41,889 nt of DNA, from the NCBI GenBank assembly GCA_015063645.1, contig SVTS01000016.1, forward strand, positions 1-41,889, in the 5' to 3' direction. This document shows, piece after piece, positions 9,742 to 35,582 of the stretch; position 1 is the stretch's first letter, and every line of letters begins with the position of its first letter. The notes below the pieces were generated by a model that saw only the letters and a list, made by a program, of their open reading frames with translations, was not told the origin of the DNA and ran no database searches. The stretch comes from Oscillospiraceae bacterium. Its GTDB lineage: Bacteria; Bacillota; Clostridia; Oscillospirales; CAG-272. A program made the position numbers and the translations under genes.

Positions 9742-11355
9742 TCAGTTCAGACGGAATTCTTCCGCAATATTCAGATAGGCACAACCGGATATGCGAACAT
9801 CGCAGGCGGTATGCACATCGACACCAACCTCAGAATTCTTGAAAACGCAGTCATGGATGCGGATGTTGTGATTGACCGGTGTCGTGAATCCACGGGAGTT
9901 GATACCGATACATCCCACGGTTTTATACCGTGCCAGAAAGCCGCAGTTATCAAAAATACAGTCGCGGATAACTGCGTCCTCACAGTGTCCGCCCTCAAAA
10001 TGATACGTAAATTCATCTCCCAGCATAATGCCTGCGTTCATCATGTTGGTATATGTACAGTTTTCGATACGGACACAGGGAGTCCGCAGAAGGTGTCCCG
10101 CTCCCGCCACGTTGCGGAAATGTGAGTCGCGGCAGTGGTATACTGTCGGTGAAAAATAGAGTGCCAGCACTGTGGTAGGCGCGGCAGCATCTACGTCTTT
10201 CGGCAGAGCGTCAAAAGTCATACGGTATGTCTGTACCGTGAGTTTTTCTTCGGACAGCGTGGAGAGATGCTCCGCCTTGAGGAGCGTTGCCTGACCGATG
10301 TTTTTTTCATTGCGGAAGAATGCAAAGCCGCCATCCTCCGTACCGGTACGGAATTCTGTGCGGGAATTGCGCGCTTCTACGATCAGTTCCGTATCGGACA
10401 GACACTCACGGACAAACATGTAGTTGTTGTGAACATTCTGACCGTCCATGCGCACGCCCTCGACGCAGAGACGGGAGACTTCCACATTTCCGCTGCATTT
10501 ATGCAGTTTCCATGCGTCGCGCGGTGCGGTGAAGTACATGCCTTCCCTCTCCGGTTTGAAAACAACGCGGTCGGCGGTGAGATTGTGTACGTCAAATGCG
10601 ATCATGGCAAAGCCGTTGGCGTTGACAGTGCGCAGATTTTTGAGTGTCAGATCGGAGGATTTGCCGAAATAACACTGAAAATCCGTCCGAGCTCCCTGAT
10701 GCCACGTCAGGATATCGTCCTTTTCCACAGCACCAATGAGTTTTTCGGATTCCACCTCAAGAAGATGATCTCCGATAAGACGGAAGTTTACACCAAGACC
10801 GGCACCGTAGGACAGACTTGCGCCGTTCAATGTTGTACCGTCGGGCGTGAAGCGGTTCATGCAGTAGGTTCCCATGTTGTCGTGACAGACATTTCCGTCA
10901 AAGACGCGTACACGGATACGACCGTTGTCAGCCTCTTCTACCCGACCTGCCGAGCCGAATTCGGGTGCGCGGGTGAATTTGAGATTCATCACCGTGATGT
11001 TTTCGCAGTATTCACACCAGAGAACAGACGGCTGAAGCGAGTGAAGTTCCAGCGTGTTGGTACCGACAAGGAGTGTAGCAGGTTCGCCATTCTCATCAAC
11101 GGCACCGCGCACAGTAAAGTTTTTGAAGCCGACAATGGGGATGAGCACCTCCTTGGTCGGCTGCAGAATCCCCCCGGCATCATGGGCGGTCTGGTCAGTC
11201 TCATAGGTGATAGGGGTTTTCAGATTGTATACACCGGATTCGAAACGGATTTCGTCAGCATTCTGTACCCTGGCTTCTTCAAAGGCACGGCGGATACCTT
11301 AGGACGCATCATCACAGGGGAGGGAAACATAATCGCGAATCTCAATAATTTTCAT
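9742..11355 (-). pseudogene. Right-handed beta-helix (pectate-lyase-like) gene with premature TAA
   Basis: The full frame from ATG 11355 (AAAGGA upstream) gives 537 codons but carries TAA at codon 19 (11299-11301), between DDAS and GIRRAFEEARVQ. The frame after the stop is clearly the normal N-terminal continuation of this fold (AxRxAFEEA ... FxSGVYNL). The ORF track's GTG start at 11148 overlaps its own AAGGAGG and is not credible. The rest shows repeated beta-helix rungs (for example VRIENCTYTNMMNAGI and IRIHDCVFKNSEVGV), as in polysaccharide lyases, GH28 and GH110-like enzymes. No signal peptide is seen. It is either a recent nonsense mutant or a sequencing error. Confidence 0.75.
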
Positions 11356-11435
11356 AAACGGTTCATTCCTTTATTCAAAAATCAACGTCCCAACGGAGGT
11401 CCCGAAGAATTTGTTTATTCTTCCATATATCGAAA

Positions 11436-11485
11436 CCGCACGGTAGTCTCAAGGGAGAGAGTTCCCCTCTGAAACTATCGTGCGG
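11436..11485 (-). terminator. Terminator after the Na+-pump operon
   Basis: Long hairpin CCGCACGGTAGTCTC / GAAACTATCGTGCGG (13 of 15 paired) with a 20-nt loop that can itself fold; in minus orientation it is followed by TTTCGATAT. It separates the pump genes from the broken beta-helix gene. The remaining 11356-11435 stretch shows nothing clear. Confidence 0.6.
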
Positions 11486-11522
11486 CTCTCACTTGACATA
11501 ATGAGATATACTCAGCGGTTAC

Positions 11523-27321: not shown

Positions 27322-28983
27322 ATGAAAAACTATTCTATTGGTATTGACTTCGGTACGCTTTCCGGGCGTGCCGTGCTCGTCCGCCACGCGGACGGAGCAG
27401 AACTCGCCTCCGCTGTTATGGATTATCCCCATGGGGTAATGGACCGCCGGCTCTGGGACGGAACACCCCTCCCGCCGGATTTTGCACTGCAGCACCCGCA
27501 GGATTATCTGGATGTTCTTGCCGATGTGGTGCCCCGTGTTCTTGCGGAAGCGGGCATCTCCGCCGAGGAGATCGCCGGTGTCTGCGTGGATTTCACCTCC
27601 TGCACCGTAATCCCCGCGCTTGCGGACGGAACGCCCCTCTGCTTCCTTGATACATTCGCCCACAATCCCCACGCCTATGTAAAGCTGTGGAAGCATCACG
27701 CCGCACAGCCCCAGGCGGACCGCATCAATGCCATCGCCGCACAGCGGGGTGAATCATGGCAGAAGCGGCTCGGCGGTAAAATCTCCCCCGAATTCATGCT
27801 GCCGAAGGTGATGGAGATTCTGGAATGCGCGCCTGAAGTATATGAAGCCGCCGAGCTCTTTATCGACGCCGGCGACTGGATCAATCTGCTTCTCACCGGT
27901 GAGGATCACCGTTCCGCCTGCGCCGCAGGCTACAAGGGACTCTGGCATCACGAAGAGGGATACCCCGTGGATTTCATCAAATCCCTGGATCCGCGGCTGG
28001 CGGATCTGATCGGGAAGAAGATTCCGGATTCCGTTGTATCCGTGGGTTCGTGCGTCGGCAGAATCACCGAAGCGGGCGCGAAGCTCTGCTCCCTTATCCC
28101 CGGCACAGCCGTGGGCGCGTCCATCATCGACGCACATGCCGCGCTCCCGTCCGTGGGCATCACCGATCCGGGCAAGCTGCTGCTGATCGTGGGTACCTCC
28201 GGCGTGCATATCGTCCTGGGCGATGAGGAACACGACGTACCCGGCATGTGCGGCGTCGTCCGCGACGGCGTGATCCCCGGCTATCTCGCCTATGAAGCGG
28301 GACAGGCGGCACTGGGCGATCATTTTGACTGGTTCGTGAAGAACTGCGTTCCCGCCCACTACACCGCCGAAGCGGAAAAGGCGGGGATGAATATCCATAA
28401 ATACCTCAGGGAGAAAGCGAAAAAACTCGCCATCGGCGAAAGCGGTCTGATCGCGCTGGACTGGTGGAACGGCAACCGCAGTGTGCTGATGAACACCGCG
28501 CTCACCGGCATGATGGTGGGCATGACGCTGACGACCACCCCCGAGGAGATCTACCGCGCACTGCTGGAAGCAACCGCATTCGGCACGCGGATGATCCTCG
28601 ACAATTTCACAGAGAACGGCGTGCCCGTGCATGAGATCATCGCCGCAGGCGGCATCGCCGTAAAGGATGAGCTGATGATGCAGATCTACGCCGACGTCAC
28701 CGGCAGGGAAATCCGCATCGCCGCCTCCACGCAGGCAGGCGCGCTGGGCAGCGCCATTCTCGGTGCCGCCGCCGCAGGCGCATTCCCATCCGTGAAAGAG
28801 GCTGCCGCCGCTATGAGCCGGGTGAAGGAGCAGAAATACATCCCCGATGCCGCGGCGCACGCGCAGTATGAAAAGCTGTACGCCGAATATGTATGTCTGC
28901 ACGATTATTTCGGACGCGGCGCGAATGACGTAATGAAACGCCTGAAGGATATCCGCCGCGAAGCCGCGGAACACAGGAAATAA
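27322..28983 (+). CDS. araB: L-ribulokinase
   Basis: 553 aa FGGY-family kinase. The ribulokinase signatures are clear: IGIDFGTLSGRAVLV, YPHGVMDRRLW, VDFTSCTVIPALADGTPLC, NPHAYVKLWKHHAAQPQADR, KISPEFMLPKVMEI, SACAAGYKGLW, AAGGIAVKDELMMQIYADV. These match AraB better than rhamnulokinase or xylulokinase. It phosphorylates L-ribulose to L-ribulose 5-phosphate in arabinose breakdown. GAGG lies upstream of the ATG. The GH106-like gene starts 10 nt after its stop, so the two form an operon. A class II aldolase-type gene, the family of AraD, converges just beyond it. No araA is in the window. Confidence 0.93.
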   Translation: MKNYSIGIDFGTLSGRAVLVRHADGAELASAVMDYPHGVMDRRLWDGTPLPPDFALQHPQDYLDVLADVVPRVLAEAGISAEEIAGVCVDFTSCTVIPALADGTPLCFLDTFAHNPHAYVKLWKHHAAQPQADRINAIAAQRGESWQKRLGGKISPEFMLPKVMEILECAPEVYEAAELFIDAGDWINLLLTGEDHRSACAAGYKGLWHHEEGYPVDFIKSLDPRLADLIGKKIPDSVVSVGSCVGRITEAGAKLCSLIPGTAVGASIIDAHAALPSVGITDPGKLLLIVGTSGVHIVLGDEEHDVPGMCGVVRDGVIPGYLAYEAGQAALGDHFDWFVKNCVPAHYTAEAEKAGMNIHKYLREKAKKLAIGESGLIALDWWNGNRSVLMNTALTGMMVGMTLTTTPEEIYRALLEATAFGTRMILDNFTENGVPVHEIIAAGGIAVKDELMMQIYADVTGREIRIAASTQAGALGSAILGAAAAGAFPSVKEAAAAMSRVKEQKYIPDAAAHAQYEKLYAEYVCLHDYFGRGANDVMKRLKDIRREAAEHRK

Positions 28984-28993
28984 GGAGAACACC

Positions 28994-31369
28994 ATGGATT
29001 TCAGAAACATTCCCGTAACCGCCCATCCGGCGTACGCATGGGTATGGAATACCGATATCACCCGCGAGGGCATCCGCGCTCAGCTGGACGATATGTACGA
29101 TCGTGGCATCCGCGCCGTGTATGTGCTGGGTGAAGCGAACAATTTCCGTCCCGAACGGTGCCGCACCCGGCTCTCCCCCGATTATCTGACGGACGAATAT
29201 GTGGAGCTGGTACATTACGCCTATACATATGCAAAAGAAAAGGGCATGCACACCTGGCTCTATAACGAAGGCGGATTCCCCTCCGGCATGGCAAGCGGCA
29301 GAATCCGCGCGGCGCATCCGGAACTGGCAATCAAAGCGGTAACGGGACGAAATGCCGCGCTGTCCGCCGGGACGGCATATGTTCCTGCCGGGGATATACT
29401 CGCCGCATTCGTGAACGGTGAGCGCATCCGGAAAGGCGATTCATTTGGAAATGATGTAACAGTACGGGAATACATCGCCGTGTCCGGCGGGGATCGGAAT
29501 GAGATCCGCACGGACAACGCCGACCGTCGCAACGTGGAGGAATTTCTCCGTCTGACCCACGAAGCATATCTCCGCCGCTTCGGCGATGCCATGGGCACGG
29601 ATGTCACACTGATGTTTGACGATGAGGCATACATGGGTACGTGGACAGCGGATATGGAGAAGATTTTCTATACCCGTTACGGATATGATCTGTGCGATTA
29701 CCTGCCGGTGATTGCCAAAGACCGCACGCCCTCCACGGAAAACGAATACCGCGCCCACAGCGATTACATCATGCTCTGCGGAGAACTGGTGCGTGCAAAT
29801 TATTTCATTCCCATGCGGGACTGGCTCCGCACCCACGGCATGCGTTCCACAGGACATCTGGACCGGGACAACGACACCATGGGATGCGTCGCCGTCCGCT
29901 ACGGCAACACGATGGAGACGCTGCGCGCCTTTGACGTGCCCGGCATCGACGTGATCTGGAGCCAGATCACCTATCCTGCGGCAGGAAAATCCTGCTCCGA
30001 GGGCAGTGAATTCTTCCCCCGCACCGCATCCTCCGCCGCCAGACAGTTGGGACACAACACCGCCATGAGCGAAAGTTTTGCCGTATTCGGTGCCCATGTG
30101 ACCCCCGAGGAGATGCGCTACGCGATCAACTATCAGGCGGTGCGCGGCATCAGCCTGTTCAATCCCATGGTGGTTTCCTATGACCGGAAGAGTGCCATGT
30201 GCCACCAGTACCGTCCCAATTTTATCGGAGAAAATCCGGGCATGGACTGCCTGTCCCAGATAAACACCTACACCGCCCGGCTCTCCCACATTCTGCAGAA
30301 CTGCCGTGCCGAAGTACATACGGCACTGTACTGTCCCTACCGCACTGTCAGCGCAGGCGGCGATATGATGAAGAAGGCCGCCGAGGCGTATGATGCGCTG
30401 GGCTGGGATCTGGAAAAAGCGGGCGTGGATTTCGACATTATTGATGAAGATTTCGTCGCCGGGGCGCGTCTTGCAAACGGCACGCTGATCGGCGAGCACG
30501 TCCGGTACGAAAACGTATTTATTCCCGACGTTCTAACGTTTGAGAAACCGGAGATTCTGGCGGTTCTCGCCGGAACAAAGGCGGAGATTGTCCCCGTGAT
30601 CACCCGGGTGAATCCGAAGCTGATCGCGCGGAAGCTGTTTGTCAGCCCCCACGAGGAAGCATATTTCATCGTGAACACCGACGGAGTCACCGTCAGCGAA
30701 ACGGTAACGCTTCCCACCGGGCGCGCACCGAGAGAACTGGATCTGCAGACCGGTGAGGAATGGGCGATGGAATGGGAGCTGGCGGACGGATGCATCCGTG
30801 TGCCGGTCACGCTTCACCGTGGCGAGGGAATCATGATCCTCTGCGGCGACGCACGAATCATGCCGCGTCCCCGCCCGAAATACAGAAAAATCGCCGAACT
30901 GACGGAGTTTGAGGGATGGATCAGCCGGGAATACACCCTGCTGCCCACCGACAATCCGGCAAACGGCGTAGTGAACACGTTCTTTGCCCGCGGAGAGCGT
31001 CCCGCGCAGGCGGAATGGGAGCCCGCATTCTCCGGTGAAGTGACATACGAAACAGTGCTGCCCGATGTGCCCGCAGGAGAACTGATGCTGGATCTGGGGG
31101 ATGTGCGCCACTTCGCCAAGATATACCGGAACGGCGAGAAGATCGCTGAAGCGACGATGCCGCCGTACCGCGTGCTCCTGCCTCACGCTGCCGCCGGTGA
31201 TTCCCTGACTGTCGTGATCGCCAACACCATCGCCAATGTGACCCGCGACGCGGAATTTTTTGATCTGCAGGCACCGTGTGATGTGGGACCCTATCATATA
31301 AGGATGAAAGAAGCGGAAAAATCCGCCCCGGCAGGCGGCTGGAGCGGGATTGTGGAGATATACGCCTGA
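28994..31369 (+). CDS. GH106-like glycoside hydrolase, shorter form
   Basis: 791 aa, AAGGAG before the ATG and only 10 nt after araB. The N-terminus resembles the large GH106-like protein (AYAWVWNTDITREGIRAQLD, MYDRGIRAVYVLGE, MHTWLYNEGGFPSGMASG). Further signs are DVTLMFDDEAYMGTW, MRSTGHLDRDNDTMG and ISLFNPMVVSYD. The C-terminal part is a beta-sandwich (WEPAFSGEVTYETVLPDV). No signal peptide. It probably removes a terminal sugar from imported oligosaccharides; pairing with araB hints at arabinose-containing rhamnogalacturonan side chains, an inference from position only. Confidence 0.8.
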   Translation: MDFRNIPVTAHPAYAWVWNTDITREGIRAQLDDMYDRGIRAVYVLGEANNFRPERCRTRLSPDYLTDEYVELVHYAYTYAKEKGMHTWLYNEGGFPSGMASGRIRAAHPELAIKAVTGRNAALSAGTAYVPAGDILAAFVNGERIRKGDSFGNDVTVREYIAVSGGDRNEIRTDNADRRNVEEFLRLTHEAYLRRFGDAMGTDVTLMFDDEAYMGTWTADMEKIFYTRYGYDLCDYLPVIAKDRTPSTENEYRAHSDYIMLCGELVRANYFIPMRDWLRTHGMRSTGHLDRDNDTMGCVAVRYGNTMETLRAFDVPGIDVIWSQITYPAAGKSCSEGSEFFPRTASSAARQLGHNTAMSESFAVFGAHVTPEEMRYAINYQAVRGISLFNPMVVSYDRKSAMCHQYRPNFIGENPGMDCLSQINTYTARLSHILQNCRAEVHTALYCPYRTVSAGGDMMKKAAEAYDALGWDLEKAGVDFDIIDEDFVAGARLANGTLIGEHVRYENVFIPDVLTFEKPEILAVLAGTKAEIVPVITRVNPKLIARKLFVSPHEEAYFIVNTDGVTVSETVTLPTGRAPRELDLQTGEEWAMEWELADGCIRVPVTLHRGEGIMILCGDARIMPRPRPKYRKIAELTEFEGWISREYTLLPTDNPANGVVNTFFARGERPAQAEWEPAFSGEVTYETVLPDVPAGELMLDLGDVRHFAKIYRNGEKIAEATMPPYRVLLPHAAAGDSLTVVIANTIANVTRDAEFFDLQAPCDVGPYHIRMKEAEKSAPAGGWSGIVEIYA

Positions 31370-31545: not shown

Positions 31546-32847
31546 TCAAAGATTGAATGCGACCTCGATGTCACGGATTTCCTTCGGGGAAATCGCCACG
31601 ATCTCCCGTCCCATCTTGATGGTATCCACCACGGCACGGGCACTGTATTCCATAACCTCAAGGCGGTCAAAGGCATTGAGCAGGGATGTGCCGCAGGCGA
31701 TGACGCAGTCGTTTTCGATGATGGCAATGGGCTCCTTCATGGACAGTTCCCTCGCCAGCATAGCGGGCTGCATGAAAGACGAACCGAAGGGGAACTTCCG
31801 CACGTTCTTCAGCATGATATAGCTCTCCGGGATCAGCTTCGCATCAAAGGGGACGTCCGTGATGGCGAACGCCATGATGTGCGGCGGCTCCGCCAGAATC
31901 ACACTGTTTATCTCCGGGGACTGGGCATAAATCGCCTGATGCAGGGGGAAGGAATGGCTGGGTGCCTTGCCGAACTCCGCCAGCCCGCCCTTGAAGAGCA
32001 CCAGATCCTCCGGCTCCAGATATTTGCGGTCCTTATCGTGAGGTGTGATCAAAAACGATCCGTCGGAGAGACGGCGGGAGAACGCACCCTGACTGCTGGT
32101 GAACAGATTGTTGTCATACGCGCGGTGAATCAGCTGGCACATCTCCTTGCGCGCCGACAATTCTTCGCTGGTACGGGTGGACGGCACAAAGCGATCCAGC
32201 TGCACATCCGCACTTTTCTCCCGATACAGTTCCATATGTTTTTCGGGGATCAGGCGGATACTGTCGGAGCCGGTGATGGAATGGGCGTTGATCTGAATCC
32301 GCGCCACATAATCCAGCGTTTCAAATTCCATGAACGCCGTGAACAGATCGTCCGAGCCGATTACCACGCCGTGGTTTTCCAGCATGACGATATCGTAATC
32401 CTTTTTGAATTCTTCCGCTATGTACGCGCCAAGTTCCTCACTGCCGGGTACAGCATATTTTGCCATGGCGACCTTCGGGCAGAGGATGCGGCAGTTGGGA
32501 ATAATATTGGTGGAGGGAATCTCGCGGATCAGGGAAAACGCCACCAGTGCCGGCGGATGCGCATGCAGCACAGCGCGCAGATCCGGGCGGGCACGGTAAA
32601 TCGCCAGATGGAAGGGATATTCCGAGGACGGCTTGTGCTGACCGATGATGGTGCCGTCGGGCATAACCTTCATGATATCCGCAGCGGTGAGATTTCCCTT
32701 GTCCACGCCGGACGGGCTGATCCACATGACGCCTTCGTCGTCCATAATGGACAGATTGCCGCCGGAAGTGGTGGTCATCTGGTAGCTGTACAGCCGTTTC
32801 ATGATCATCACGATCTGATCTGCGGGGTGAAGCATGGAAAAGTTCAT
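31546..32847 (-). CDS. Tandem class II aldolase/epimerase with degenerate second domain
   Basis: 433 aa from ATG 32847; GGAGG is 6 nt upstream, whereas ATG 32853 abuts it. Two class II aldolase (FucA/AraD) domains follow each other. Domain 1 has SGGNLS, SSEYPFH (E76), HAHPPA (H95, H97) and ENHGVV (H159), the expected catalytic Glu and zinc ligands. Domain 2 keeps the frame (SSQGAFS, PLHQAIY, AEPPHIM, ENDCVIA) but has Ser, Leu, Glu and Asp at the four positions, so it cannot bind the metal the same way. The substrate is likely a phosphorylated sugar such as L-ribulose 5-phosphate or L-fuculose 1-phosphate. Usual family length is about 210-230 aa. Confidence 0.88.
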   Translation of the reverse strand: MNFSMLHPADQIVMIMKRLYSYQMTTTSGGNLSIMDDEGVMWISPSGVDKGNLTAADIMKVMPDGTIIGQHKPSSEYPFHLAIYRARPDLRAVLHAHPPALVAFSLIREIPSTNIIPNCRILCPKVAMAKYAVPGSEELGAYIAEEFKKDYDIVMLENHGVVIGSDDLFTAFMEFETLDYVARIQINAHSITGSDSIRLIPEKHMELYREKSADVQLDRFVPSTRTSEELSARKEMCQLIHRAYDNNLFTSSQGAFSRRLSDGSFLITPHDKDRKYLEPEDLVLFKGGLAEFGKAPSHSFPLHQAIYAQSPEINSVILAEPPHIMAFAITDVPFDAKLIPESYIMLKNVRKFPFGSSFMQPAMLARELSMKEPIAIIENDCVIACGTSLLNAFDRLEVMEYSARAVVDTIKMGREIVAISPKEIRDIEVAFNL

Positions 32848-32858
32848 TTGCATCCTCC

Positions 32859-32971
32859 AAAAATGTGATAATATAGATAAATTAACATGTTTGTTTTAAC
32901 ATATAACATTATATCACATTTTTGCTTTGATTGCAACAATCAAATATCACAGGATTTATCTGTGATATTTG
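32859..32971. promoter_or_regulatory. Operator cluster with TGTGATA half-sites upstream of the aldolase
   Basis: Arms AAAAATGTGATAATAT (32859-32874) and ATTATATCACATTTTT (32908-32923) form one inverted repeat that overlaps the ribosome-site side and the -10 element. A second, perfect 12-bp inverted repeat CAAATATCACAG / CTGTGATATTTG (7-nt centre) lies at 32941-32971, upstream of the -35. All four arms share TGTGATA. A sugar-responsive regulator is inferred; it is not obviously encoded here. Confidence 0.65.
32908..32936 (-). promoter_or_regulatory. Promoter of the aldolase gene
   Basis: Minus strand TTGCAA, 17-nt spacer, TATAAT. The -10 and spacer fall inside the TGTGATA inverted repeat. Confidence 0.75.
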
Positions 32972-32984
32972 TGCCGTTTTGTGC

Positions 32985-33024
32985 AAAAAAGGAACACGGG
33001 GAAATCCACTCTTCGGATTTCCCC
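32985..33024 (-). terminator. Terminator after the CD3324-family gene
   Basis: 10-bp hairpin GGGGAAATCC / GGATTTCCCC with a 7-nt loop, followed in minus orientation by a T run (TTTTTT). Confidence 0.85.
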
Positions 33025-33029
33025 GCGCT

Positions 33030-33686: not shown

Positions 33687-35582
33687 TTGCAGGATTATTC
33701 GGAACTGATCCACTGGGTCGGAGAGGCGAAATCGGGAAACGAAGAAGCCTTCGCCCATATATATAAAGCCACGCATCCGCTTGTTTACAATATCGGCTGT
33801 GTCTGTACAGAAGATCCGGAAAGAGCGAAAGATATTGTTTCCGAGGTGTTTATCCGGGTTTTCAAAAACCTGAATCAGCTGCGGGACAATCACTCCTTTG
33901 TCAATTGGCTGATTGTCATCACCAGACACGTCTGTGCAGATCATAAGCAGGAGGATGCGAAGGAGGAAGAAGCTCTTCTGTTCCTCAGCGACGGGAACAC
34001 GGACGATATTGAAGAATGGCATCGGCAGGAAGCCATGCAGTCCGTTGTGCAGAAGATTCTGAAACAACTGCCCGAAACGCAGCAGAGAGCGGTGCACTAC
34101 GTTTATTTCCGTCAGCTGTCCATCGGACAGGCTGCCGCGCTGGAAAACTGCTCCATCGGCACCCTCAAAAGCCGTCTGTTTTACGCCAGAGAAACACTGC
34201 GGAAAGCCATCAGCGCTGAGGAAAAACGAAGCGGCGATAAACTGCACATGCCGGCAGCGGTAGTAGCGCTGGCAGGTCTGGCGATGCTGCCGAATATGCC
34301 GTTTTCCCTCTCATCCGCGGAAGCGGCACAGATTTTTTCCACAATCATGGGCGCACTGCAGCTGCAGTATGCAGCAGACGCGGATGCACCGCGCATTATC
34401 CGGATAGAGAATGAGGAAAAAACTTCCCTCTTCAAGAAAAATTACCTGCTCCGTTTTTCCCCTGCGGCAGCCGCCGCGGCGATTACGGTGACAGTCGCCG
34501 TTGTGCTGTGCATCGGCATGATCACGATTCATGCGCTCTCTGATCAGTTATCCGGAGAAGACGGCAGCACGCCGCCGGATCCGAGGAATAATTCTGCCGG
34601 AATGGTTCTTGCTGAAACGGCATCTGCTGCGGCGGAAGCGGAAACCACAACTGCCCCCGTCACGGAAGTGGAATTCACCACCGCCCACGGTGCTGTGATC
34701 ACCGCCGTACTGACGGAGAACAACACAATGACCGTTCTCCGGGCAAAATGTGAGGTGGAAACGCTGATCATCCCTGATGACATCAACGATATTCCCGTGA
34801 CGGAAATTGCCGAGGGTGCGTTTGACGCGGACTGCGAAGCGGTAAAATACCTGCATCTGCACAACAATATGCAGATCATCTCCGGCAAAACCGTTGCCGC
34901 ACTGGAAAATCTGCAGTCGATCCACGTGCCGACCTCCTCCGCGTATCTTTCCTCTGCCGGGGAAATCCTGTACAGCAAGGACGGTTCCGTGCTGATCGCC
35001 TATCCCAATGACCGGCGCTCTTCAGAGTTCCGTATTCCTGCCTCCGTGCGCACCGTCGGTGCCTACGCCATAAACAGCCGCTGGCTGACGAAGCTGCATT
35101 TTTCACAGTACGGCGTGACAACCCTCGGGGAATACAGCCTGGCAGGCTGTGAAAAGCTGACGGAAGTCCGCATTCCCAATACGGTCAGTGAAATCGGCGA
35201 AAATGCCCTGGCATCCCCGTCGCTCACATACATATATGCCTATGCGGGCACGGAGCAGCACAACTGGTCCTGGAGCGGTGCTCTGCTCAGCTATGACAAG
35301 ACCCATCTGGTCCAGTATCCCGGCGGAAAACCGACGGAAACGTATACAATCCCGGAACCGATTCTGACAGTGGATGCCTATGCGTTCTCCGGCGCGGAGA
35401 ATCTGCGGGAGATCATCGTTCCCGAAACGGTCAGGGAACTGCACGCCAACGCTTTCACCGGATGCGATAATCTGGAGCGGGTCTGGTTCCGCGGAGAAGC
35501 CCCCGCCATTATCGGCGGAGACACCCTGCTGATGCCCAATGCGGTCTGCAGAACCGGTTACACCGACCGGGCTGAATCCTGA
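33687..35582 (+). CDS. Membrane-anchored ECF sigma factor fused to BspA-type leucine-rich repeats
   Basis: 631 aa from TTG 33687 (AAAAGGAGA 6 nt upstream). Residues 1-95 are sigma region 2 (EEAFAHIYKATHPLVYNIG, DIVSEVFIRVFKNL, FVNWLIVITRHVC) and about 120-180 region 4 (QQRAVHYVYFRQLSIGQAAA, SIGTLKSRLFYARETLRKA). A membrane helix follows at about 256-283 (AAAAAAITVTVAVVLCIGMI). From about 335 to the end come BspA-type leucine-rich repeats (EIAEGAFDAD, FRIPASVRTVGAYAI, VRIPNTVSEIGENAL, IIVPETVRELHANAF). The sigma part would be cytoplasmic and the repeats outside. No separate anti-sigma gene is adjacent. Confidence 0.88.
   Translation: MQDYSELIHWVGEAKSGNEEAFAHIYKATHPLVYNIGCVCTEDPERAKDIVSEVFIRVFKNLNQLRDNHSFVNWLIVITRHVCADHKQEDAKEEEALLFLSDGNTDDIEEWHRQEAMQSVVQKILKQLPETQQRAVHYVYFRQLSIGQAAALENCSIGTLKSRLFYARETLRKAISAEEKRSGDKLHMPAAVVALAGLAMLPNMPFSLSSAEAAQIFSTIMGALQLQYAADADAPRIIRIENEEKTSLFKKNYLLRFSPAAAAAAITVTVAVVLCIGMITIHALSDQLSGEDGSTPPDPRNNSAGMVLAETASAAAEAETTTAPVTEVEFTTAHGAVITAVLTENNTMTVLRAKCEVETLIIPDDINDIPVTEIAEGAFDADCEAVKYLHLHNNMQIISGKTVAALENLQSIHVPTSSAYLSSAGEILYSKDGSVLIAYPNDRRSSEFRIPASVRTVGAYAINSRWLTKLHFSQYGVTTLGEYSLAGCEKLTEVRIPNTVSEIGENALASPSLTYIYAYAGTEQHNWSWSGALLSYDKTHLVQYPGGKPTETYTIPEPILTVDAYAFSGAENLREIIVPETVRELHANAFTGCDNLERVWFRGEAPAIIGGDTLLMPNAVCRTGYTDRAES

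Follow-up and report, generated by a model that had tools for sequence, protein, structure and literature searches.

In the homotetramer formed by the class II aldolase FucA, the subunits are identical and single-domain, and each of the four active sites draws residues from two of them. In the E. coli enzyme, one subunit contributes Asn29, Ser71, Ser72, Glu73 and Phe131, and its neighbor contributes Tyr113', Met114', Val202' and Phe206' (PMC11274987; also PMC11841055). Similarly, Glu153' of the T. maritima RhaD is contributed by the next subunit (PMC11274987; also PMC11841055). Two rhamnulose-1-phosphate aldolases are known in the phosphorylated pathway, RhaD and RhaEW (PMC3870299). RhaEW, represented by YuxG of B. 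subtilis, is a non-orthologous replacement of RhaD and possesses two domains, of which the N-terminal one belongs to PF00596 (PMC3870299).

The protein described here also possesses two domains. It is encoded in a stretch of 41,889 nucleotides from an Oscillospiraceae bacterium (contig SVTS01000016.1), hereafter the window, by a gene for 433 amino acids on the minus strand (31546..32847), as recognized from its open reading frame and translation and from two matches to PF00596. Overall, the evidence favors, with a probability of about 0.65, a class II aldolase of the FucA/RhaD kind that was duplicated and fused, whose halves hold complementary half-sites and whose substrate is likely L-rhamnulose-1-phosphate. 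Unless stated otherwise, all coordinates below are on the minus strand. The N-terminal domain (D1, residues 1-212, 32212..32847) carries an intact metal and phosphate site with the invariant residues N31, S74, E76, H95, H97 and H159, and the C-terminal domain (D2, residues 224-433, 31549..32178) has the class II aldolase fold without a metal site. They are joined by a linker (residues 213-223, 32179..32211) that is modeled with low confidence, pLDDT being below 50 at residues 205-223.

The ATG at 32847 is preceded at a distance of 6 nt by a GGAGG ribosome-binding site (32854..32858), and the homologues begin at the same position. An upstream ATG at 32853, which would add two residues, was rejected as the start on the same comparison and because GGAGG lies directly against it. 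The TGA stop codon (31546-31548) is included in the gene. A promoter-like element, TTGCAA-17-TATAAT with TG before the second hexamer, is located at 32908..32936; it scores 10/12 in a consensus scan, which alone is not evidence of function. Farther upstream, a strong terminator-like hairpin with a 16-pair stem and a T run (32993..33029) follows a CD3324-family gene and separates it from the aldolase gene. An antisense reading frame at 31879-32868 (plus strand) is a mechanical overlap with the aldolase gene, and there is no evidence that it is a gene. At 33687-35582 (plus strand), the window contains an open reading frame whose beginning resembles an ECF sigma factor and which continues with a hydrophobic stretch and leucine-rich-repeat-like sequence.

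Both halves belong to the class II aldolase/adducin superfamily PF00596, which matches each separately, with 162.5 bits for D1 and 77.4 bits for D2 against a gathering score of 22.2. The two domains share 28% identity (E 4e-19) and match in a profile comparison with an E-value of 1e-34. The preliminary description of this locus had left room for the second half to be another fold. This was ruled out because D2 by itself retrieves structurally characterized class II aldolases (6vop, E 6e-7; FucA, about 1e-5; and also YgbL), and the profile of the D2 family matches FucA with an E-value of 1e-17. An AlphaFold2 single-chain model, built on an alignment of five rows and of moderate quality (pLDDT 75.5, pTM 0.63), has the same order of helices and strands in D1 and D2, and its best matches in the PDB are FucA and DrdA (4c24, 6btd).

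With FucA from E. coli and S. pneumoniae and with DrdA, the fused protein shares the fold, the metal and phosphate residues of D1 and, as proposed below, sites formed by two adjacent subunits. It differs from FucA in that each half lacks part of the site, and its scores against FucA models are under the cut-offs (TIGR01086, 99.8 against 400; PRK06833, 145.8 against 264). Canonical RhaD has in common with it the superfamily, the probable reaction and, as proposed below, a glutamate from a neighboring subunit, which in T. maritima RhaD is Glu153'. However, RhaD is a single-domain protein and is not found in RhaA-bearing genomes that have the fused gene, and the RhaD model PRK03634 gives 64 bits on the fused protein against a cut-off of 170. 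In RhaEW the second domain is a short-chain dehydrogenase, whereas in the fused protein it has the aldolase fold; no dehydrogenase match was found in this second half, which is PF00596. The fused protein is neither RhaD nor RhaEW. The best NCBIfam match, the 3-oxo-tetronate 4-phosphate decarboxylase NF043034, is likewise under its cut-off (160.7 against 250), as is the epimerase AraD (TIGR00760, 61 against 389 bits), and D1 has Glu76 rather than Asp.

The catalytic members of the class II aldolases possess three histidines and a Glu or Asp as metal ligands. All four are present in D1, whereas none is in D2. Among 71 fused homologues, the D1 ligand E76 (32620..32622), which aligns with FucA Glu73 and occupies the general base position, is Glu in every sequence. 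H95 and H97 (H95-A-H97, 32557..32565), which correspond to FucA His92 and His94 in the FucA/AraD alignment, are conserved in 70 of 71 each, and H159 (32371..32373), corresponding to FucA His155, is also conserved in 70 of 71. In D2, the position of the glutamate ligand is held by S299 (31951..31953), which is Ser in 53 of the 71 and Ala in 11 and is never acidic. L318-A-E320 (31888..31896) stands in place of the HxH motif; residue 318 is never His, and residue 320, a Glu here, is His in 51/71. The third histidine is replaced by D380 (31708..31710), with Asp in 62/71 and His in 1/71.

This distribution agrees with the preliminary description, which had assigned the four D1 ligands and the Ser, Leu, Glu and Asp of D2 exactly. 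The assignment holds whichever alignment method is used. Three modes of MAFFT and hhalign gave the same register between D1 and D2, and alignment of both halves to FucA and AraD confirmed the ligand positions. The possibility that the D2 ligands are conserved with a shift was ruled out, as all alignment methods agree. A search for other fused genes with the same decay had also been proposed. Loss of the glutamate and the first histidine is common to all 71 homologues, but loss at position 320 is not. Because the equivalent of H97 is still His in 51/71, the loss of all four ligands is a later step in the clade of the window gene, and represents the end of a process that had begun in the ancestor.

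When the halves are analyzed phylogenetically, the D1 sequences form one clade and the D2 sequences another, with support of 99 and 100, and because of this both halves fit an origin in one old duplication and fusion. In the nearest single-domain relatives, which belong to the same order, the metal site occurs together with the PE motif discussed below, so the ancestor probably had both. In the order, 32 of 394 sampled genomes matched at the threshold used, some of them with single-domain proteins. In the class, 57 of 391 sampled genomes matched, and most of these contain the fused family. Another 8 genomes of the phylum also contain it, as do Persicobacter (Bacteroidota) plasmids, and viral contigs examined for more sequences yielded one useful partial fragment. 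Only one homologue, L018 (G052 contig 34), has broken D1 ligands, with YAY in place of the HxH motif and Gly for H159. It is also the sole fused homologue without the PE-x-Y motif of D2, and no RhaA was found in its genome; it is possibly a pseudoenzyme or a protein with a new function.

Single-domain proteins were also observed next to each other or next to the fused gene. Two single-domain class II aldolases that lie side by side at L030 (G009 contig 30, 666-2124, minus strand) have similar C-terminal tails that resemble microcompartment targeting peptides. Only one of them is intact; HAQ stands in place of HAH in the other, which lacks the third histidine as well but keeps the PE motif. This may be an independent, unfused pair of an active and a dead copy. 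At L118, which comes from a genus of complete genomes in another class, a 349-residue protein with a single aldolase domain (10445-11494, plus strand) starts 44 bases after the fused gene.

The residues that are conserved in only one of the two domains form a reciprocal pattern. Conservation was calculated from 68 full-length fused homologues, with an effective number of 43 at 80% identity. Among the positions conserved in D1 but not in D2 are N31, S74, E76, H95, H97 and H159, the metal and phosphate residues; P340, E341, Y343, D394 and F431 are among those conserved in D2 but not in D1. Specifically, P340-E341-S-Y343 (31819..31830) lies in the segment of FucA Tyr113' and Met114' and is kept only in D2 (P in 69/71, E in 70/71, Y in 69/71). 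The D1 counterpart of E341-x-Y343, N118-C-R120 (32488..32496), is variable, the commonest residues having weights of 0.41 and 0.19. F431 (31555..31557), which is aligned to FucA Phe206', is likewise kept only in D2 and is present in all 67 sequences that reach it; the conservation of its D1 counterpart is 0.30. Of the mapped residues, all four that a FucA subunit gives to its neighbor show the higher conservation in D2. Six of the seven own-site residues show it in D1, the exception being FucA Ser72. In rank tests over 206 aligned positions, the bias of the own-site residues toward D1 gave a p of 0.03 and that of the neighbor segments toward D2 a p of 4e-4, the latter being optimistic because the segments were chosen after the motif had been seen. 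In sequence alignments, E341 and Y343 are in the right segment, one to three residues away from RhaD Glu171, AraD Asp120 and FucA Tyr113. An exact match of E341 to AraD Asp120 or FucA Tyr113 was rejected for this reason, and equivalence is claimed for the segment only.

These patterns give substance to the suggestion that the second domain replaces a partner subunit, since the segments that a FucA subunit offers to its neighbor are retained in D2 but lost from D1. The most probable geometry, an inferred one, is a pseudo-tetramer at whose alternating interfaces D1 and D2 build a composite site, one for each chain. In this reading, duplication and fusion of a subunit from an ancestral homotetramer would have been followed by complementary losses from the active site in the two copies. 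The metal, the catalytic residue Glu76 and the residues that bind phosphate would come from D1, and the PE-x-Y segment and the C-terminal Phe, which would line and finish the site across the subunit interface, from D2. A ring of four domains, D1-D2-D1-D2, would result from the pairing of two chains; two of its sites, each composed of D1 and a D2, would work and the other two would be dead. In such a ring the metal site of D1 would face the segment and terminal Phe of D2, and the former site of D2 would face D1 and be dead. The chemistry of D1 would be that of FucA, with a metal-bound enediolate of DHAP and Glu76 as the base, and L-rhamnulose-1-phosphate would be split into DHAP and L-lactaldehyde. 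In this scheme we infer the ring, the catalytic role of E341, Y343 and F431 on the substrate of D1, and the substrate itself.

Three other explanations of D2 were weighed. That it is a decaying, non-functional copy is hardly credible, although all four ligands are absent from the member in the window. Mean conservation in the 68 homologues is 0.577 for D2 against 0.614 for D1, and in 14 close pairs the NG86 dN values are similar in the two domains; dS, in those cases that allowed an estimate, is many times larger, and dN/dS is low in both halves. Moreover, the pattern of loss is common to sequences from the Clostridia through Persicobacter. Taken together, these observations refute a decaying copy. 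Because D2, as these comparisons show, is under purifying selection like D1, decay, the term of the preliminary description, is the wrong word. It is also unlikely, though less remotely so, that D2 is a catalytically silent scaffold, whose only role is to complete the ring and hold D1, with no residue of its own taking part in the chemistry. The adducin fold does keep its tetramer after loss of the metal site (PMC12599920), and D2 has conserved residues outside both of the segments discussed above (R233, E291, D394). However, a scaffold has no need for an invariant Glu and Tyr in a segment that lines the neighbor's site, and it leaves the loss of the same residues from D1 without need as well. 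The residues that replace the ligands and their surroundings are not random, with Arg at 298 in 59/71 and Asp at 380 in 62/71, and could indicate a regulatory or ligand-binding domain that re-uses the old pocket through the conserved R298, R274 and D380. This is improbable, as it leaves unexplained both the loss of PE-x-Y from D1 and the invariant C-terminal Phe of D2, and no allosteric partner was seen in the neighborhood.

If the composite aldolase is accepted, its substrate has to be weighed separately. Genome context makes L-rhamnulose-1-phosphate the probable one. At 13 of 64 fused loci, a gene for rhamnose isomerase (rhaA or rhaI) or rhamnulokinase (rhaB) lies within 6 kb, or at 14 if a weaker kinase hit is counted. 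The order at these loci is often rhaB-rhaA-aldolase, and they come from several families and from Persicobacter. Among 60 relatives that bear RhaA, RhaD was found in none of the 16 with the fused gene versus 20 of the 44 without it (p 4e-4 in a test that ignores relatedness, or 4e-3 if a RhaD fragment in genome G046 counts). In the window genome, rhaA and rhaB are adjacent on a different contig, and RhaD was not found. In the window, the aldolase gene is outside any rha operon, and a gene of the GH106 family of alpha-L-rhamnosidases converges on it (28994..31369, plus strand; PF17132, E 8e-24). Directly upstream of the GH106 gene is a ribulokinase gene, araB (27322-28983, plus strand). No AraD was found in the window genome, which is incomplete. 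A rhamnose cluster of Caldicellulosiruptor is a lead only, with no tie found to the fused gene. The preliminary description had raised a possible change of oligomer or substrate range; the context points to an ordinary substrate of the family.

There remains a real, if lesser, chance that the composite aldolase acts on another ketose phosphate and that a RhaEW-like aldolase/dehydrogenase performs the rhamnulose-1-phosphate step. Such a fusion is encoded in the same genome at L126 (G000 contig 8, 106-2055) with intact-looking HVH and NHG motifs, at 300 bits against the TIGR02632 cut-off of 568, and a RhaEW-like gene adjoins the fused gene in L135 and other loci. The proximity of the window gene to a ribulokinase also fits another substrate, as does the finding that most of the 64 loci have no rhamnose genes nearby. 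Against this, strong matches to TIGR02632 (E <= 1e-60) occur in only 10 of 97 relatives, so most genomes with the fused gene lack such a match. In addition, D1 has Glu at the Glu73 position as do the aldolases, whereas the epimerase AraD has Asp, and the linkage to rhamnose recurs in unrelated lineages. The fusion at L126 adjoins a gene resembling a PHP-domain protein, and the same pair is near the fused aldolase in L118, L135, L155, L163 and L164.

The broader form of the argument, that there is a widespread family of fused half-enzymes in which only the hetero-interfaces work and which serves as a third, undescribed replacement of RhaD, is more tentative, at somewhat less than even odds. If true, it would be a natural case of complementary degeneration within one chain, in which the halves divide a site that was once common to identical subunits. 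A loosely annotated but common two-domain family would also gain a function, and a gap would be filled in the use of rhamnose, a plant sugar, by those gut and rumen anaerobes in which RhaA and RhaB are present without RhaD. No description of class II aldolases in tandem, whether with one dead half or with complementary halves, was found in a partial coverage of the literature, and one may still exist.

In other enzymes, inactive paralogues are known to assist an active one. The AdoMetDC-prozyme pair of trypanosomes is described as an active subunit that needs a catalytically dead paralogue (PMC6221367). There, however, the chains are separate and the fold is unrelated, so that the likeness to the fused aldolase is an analogy only. 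Closer in structure is the head domain of adducin, an alpha/beta heterotetramer, which like D2 has a class II aldolase fold without a metal site and yet keeps the tetramer. Adducin thus shows that a dead aldolase fold can stand in a tetramer. Adducin has only dead sites and serves to bind actin, whereas in the fused protein one half of each pair keeps a full metal site.
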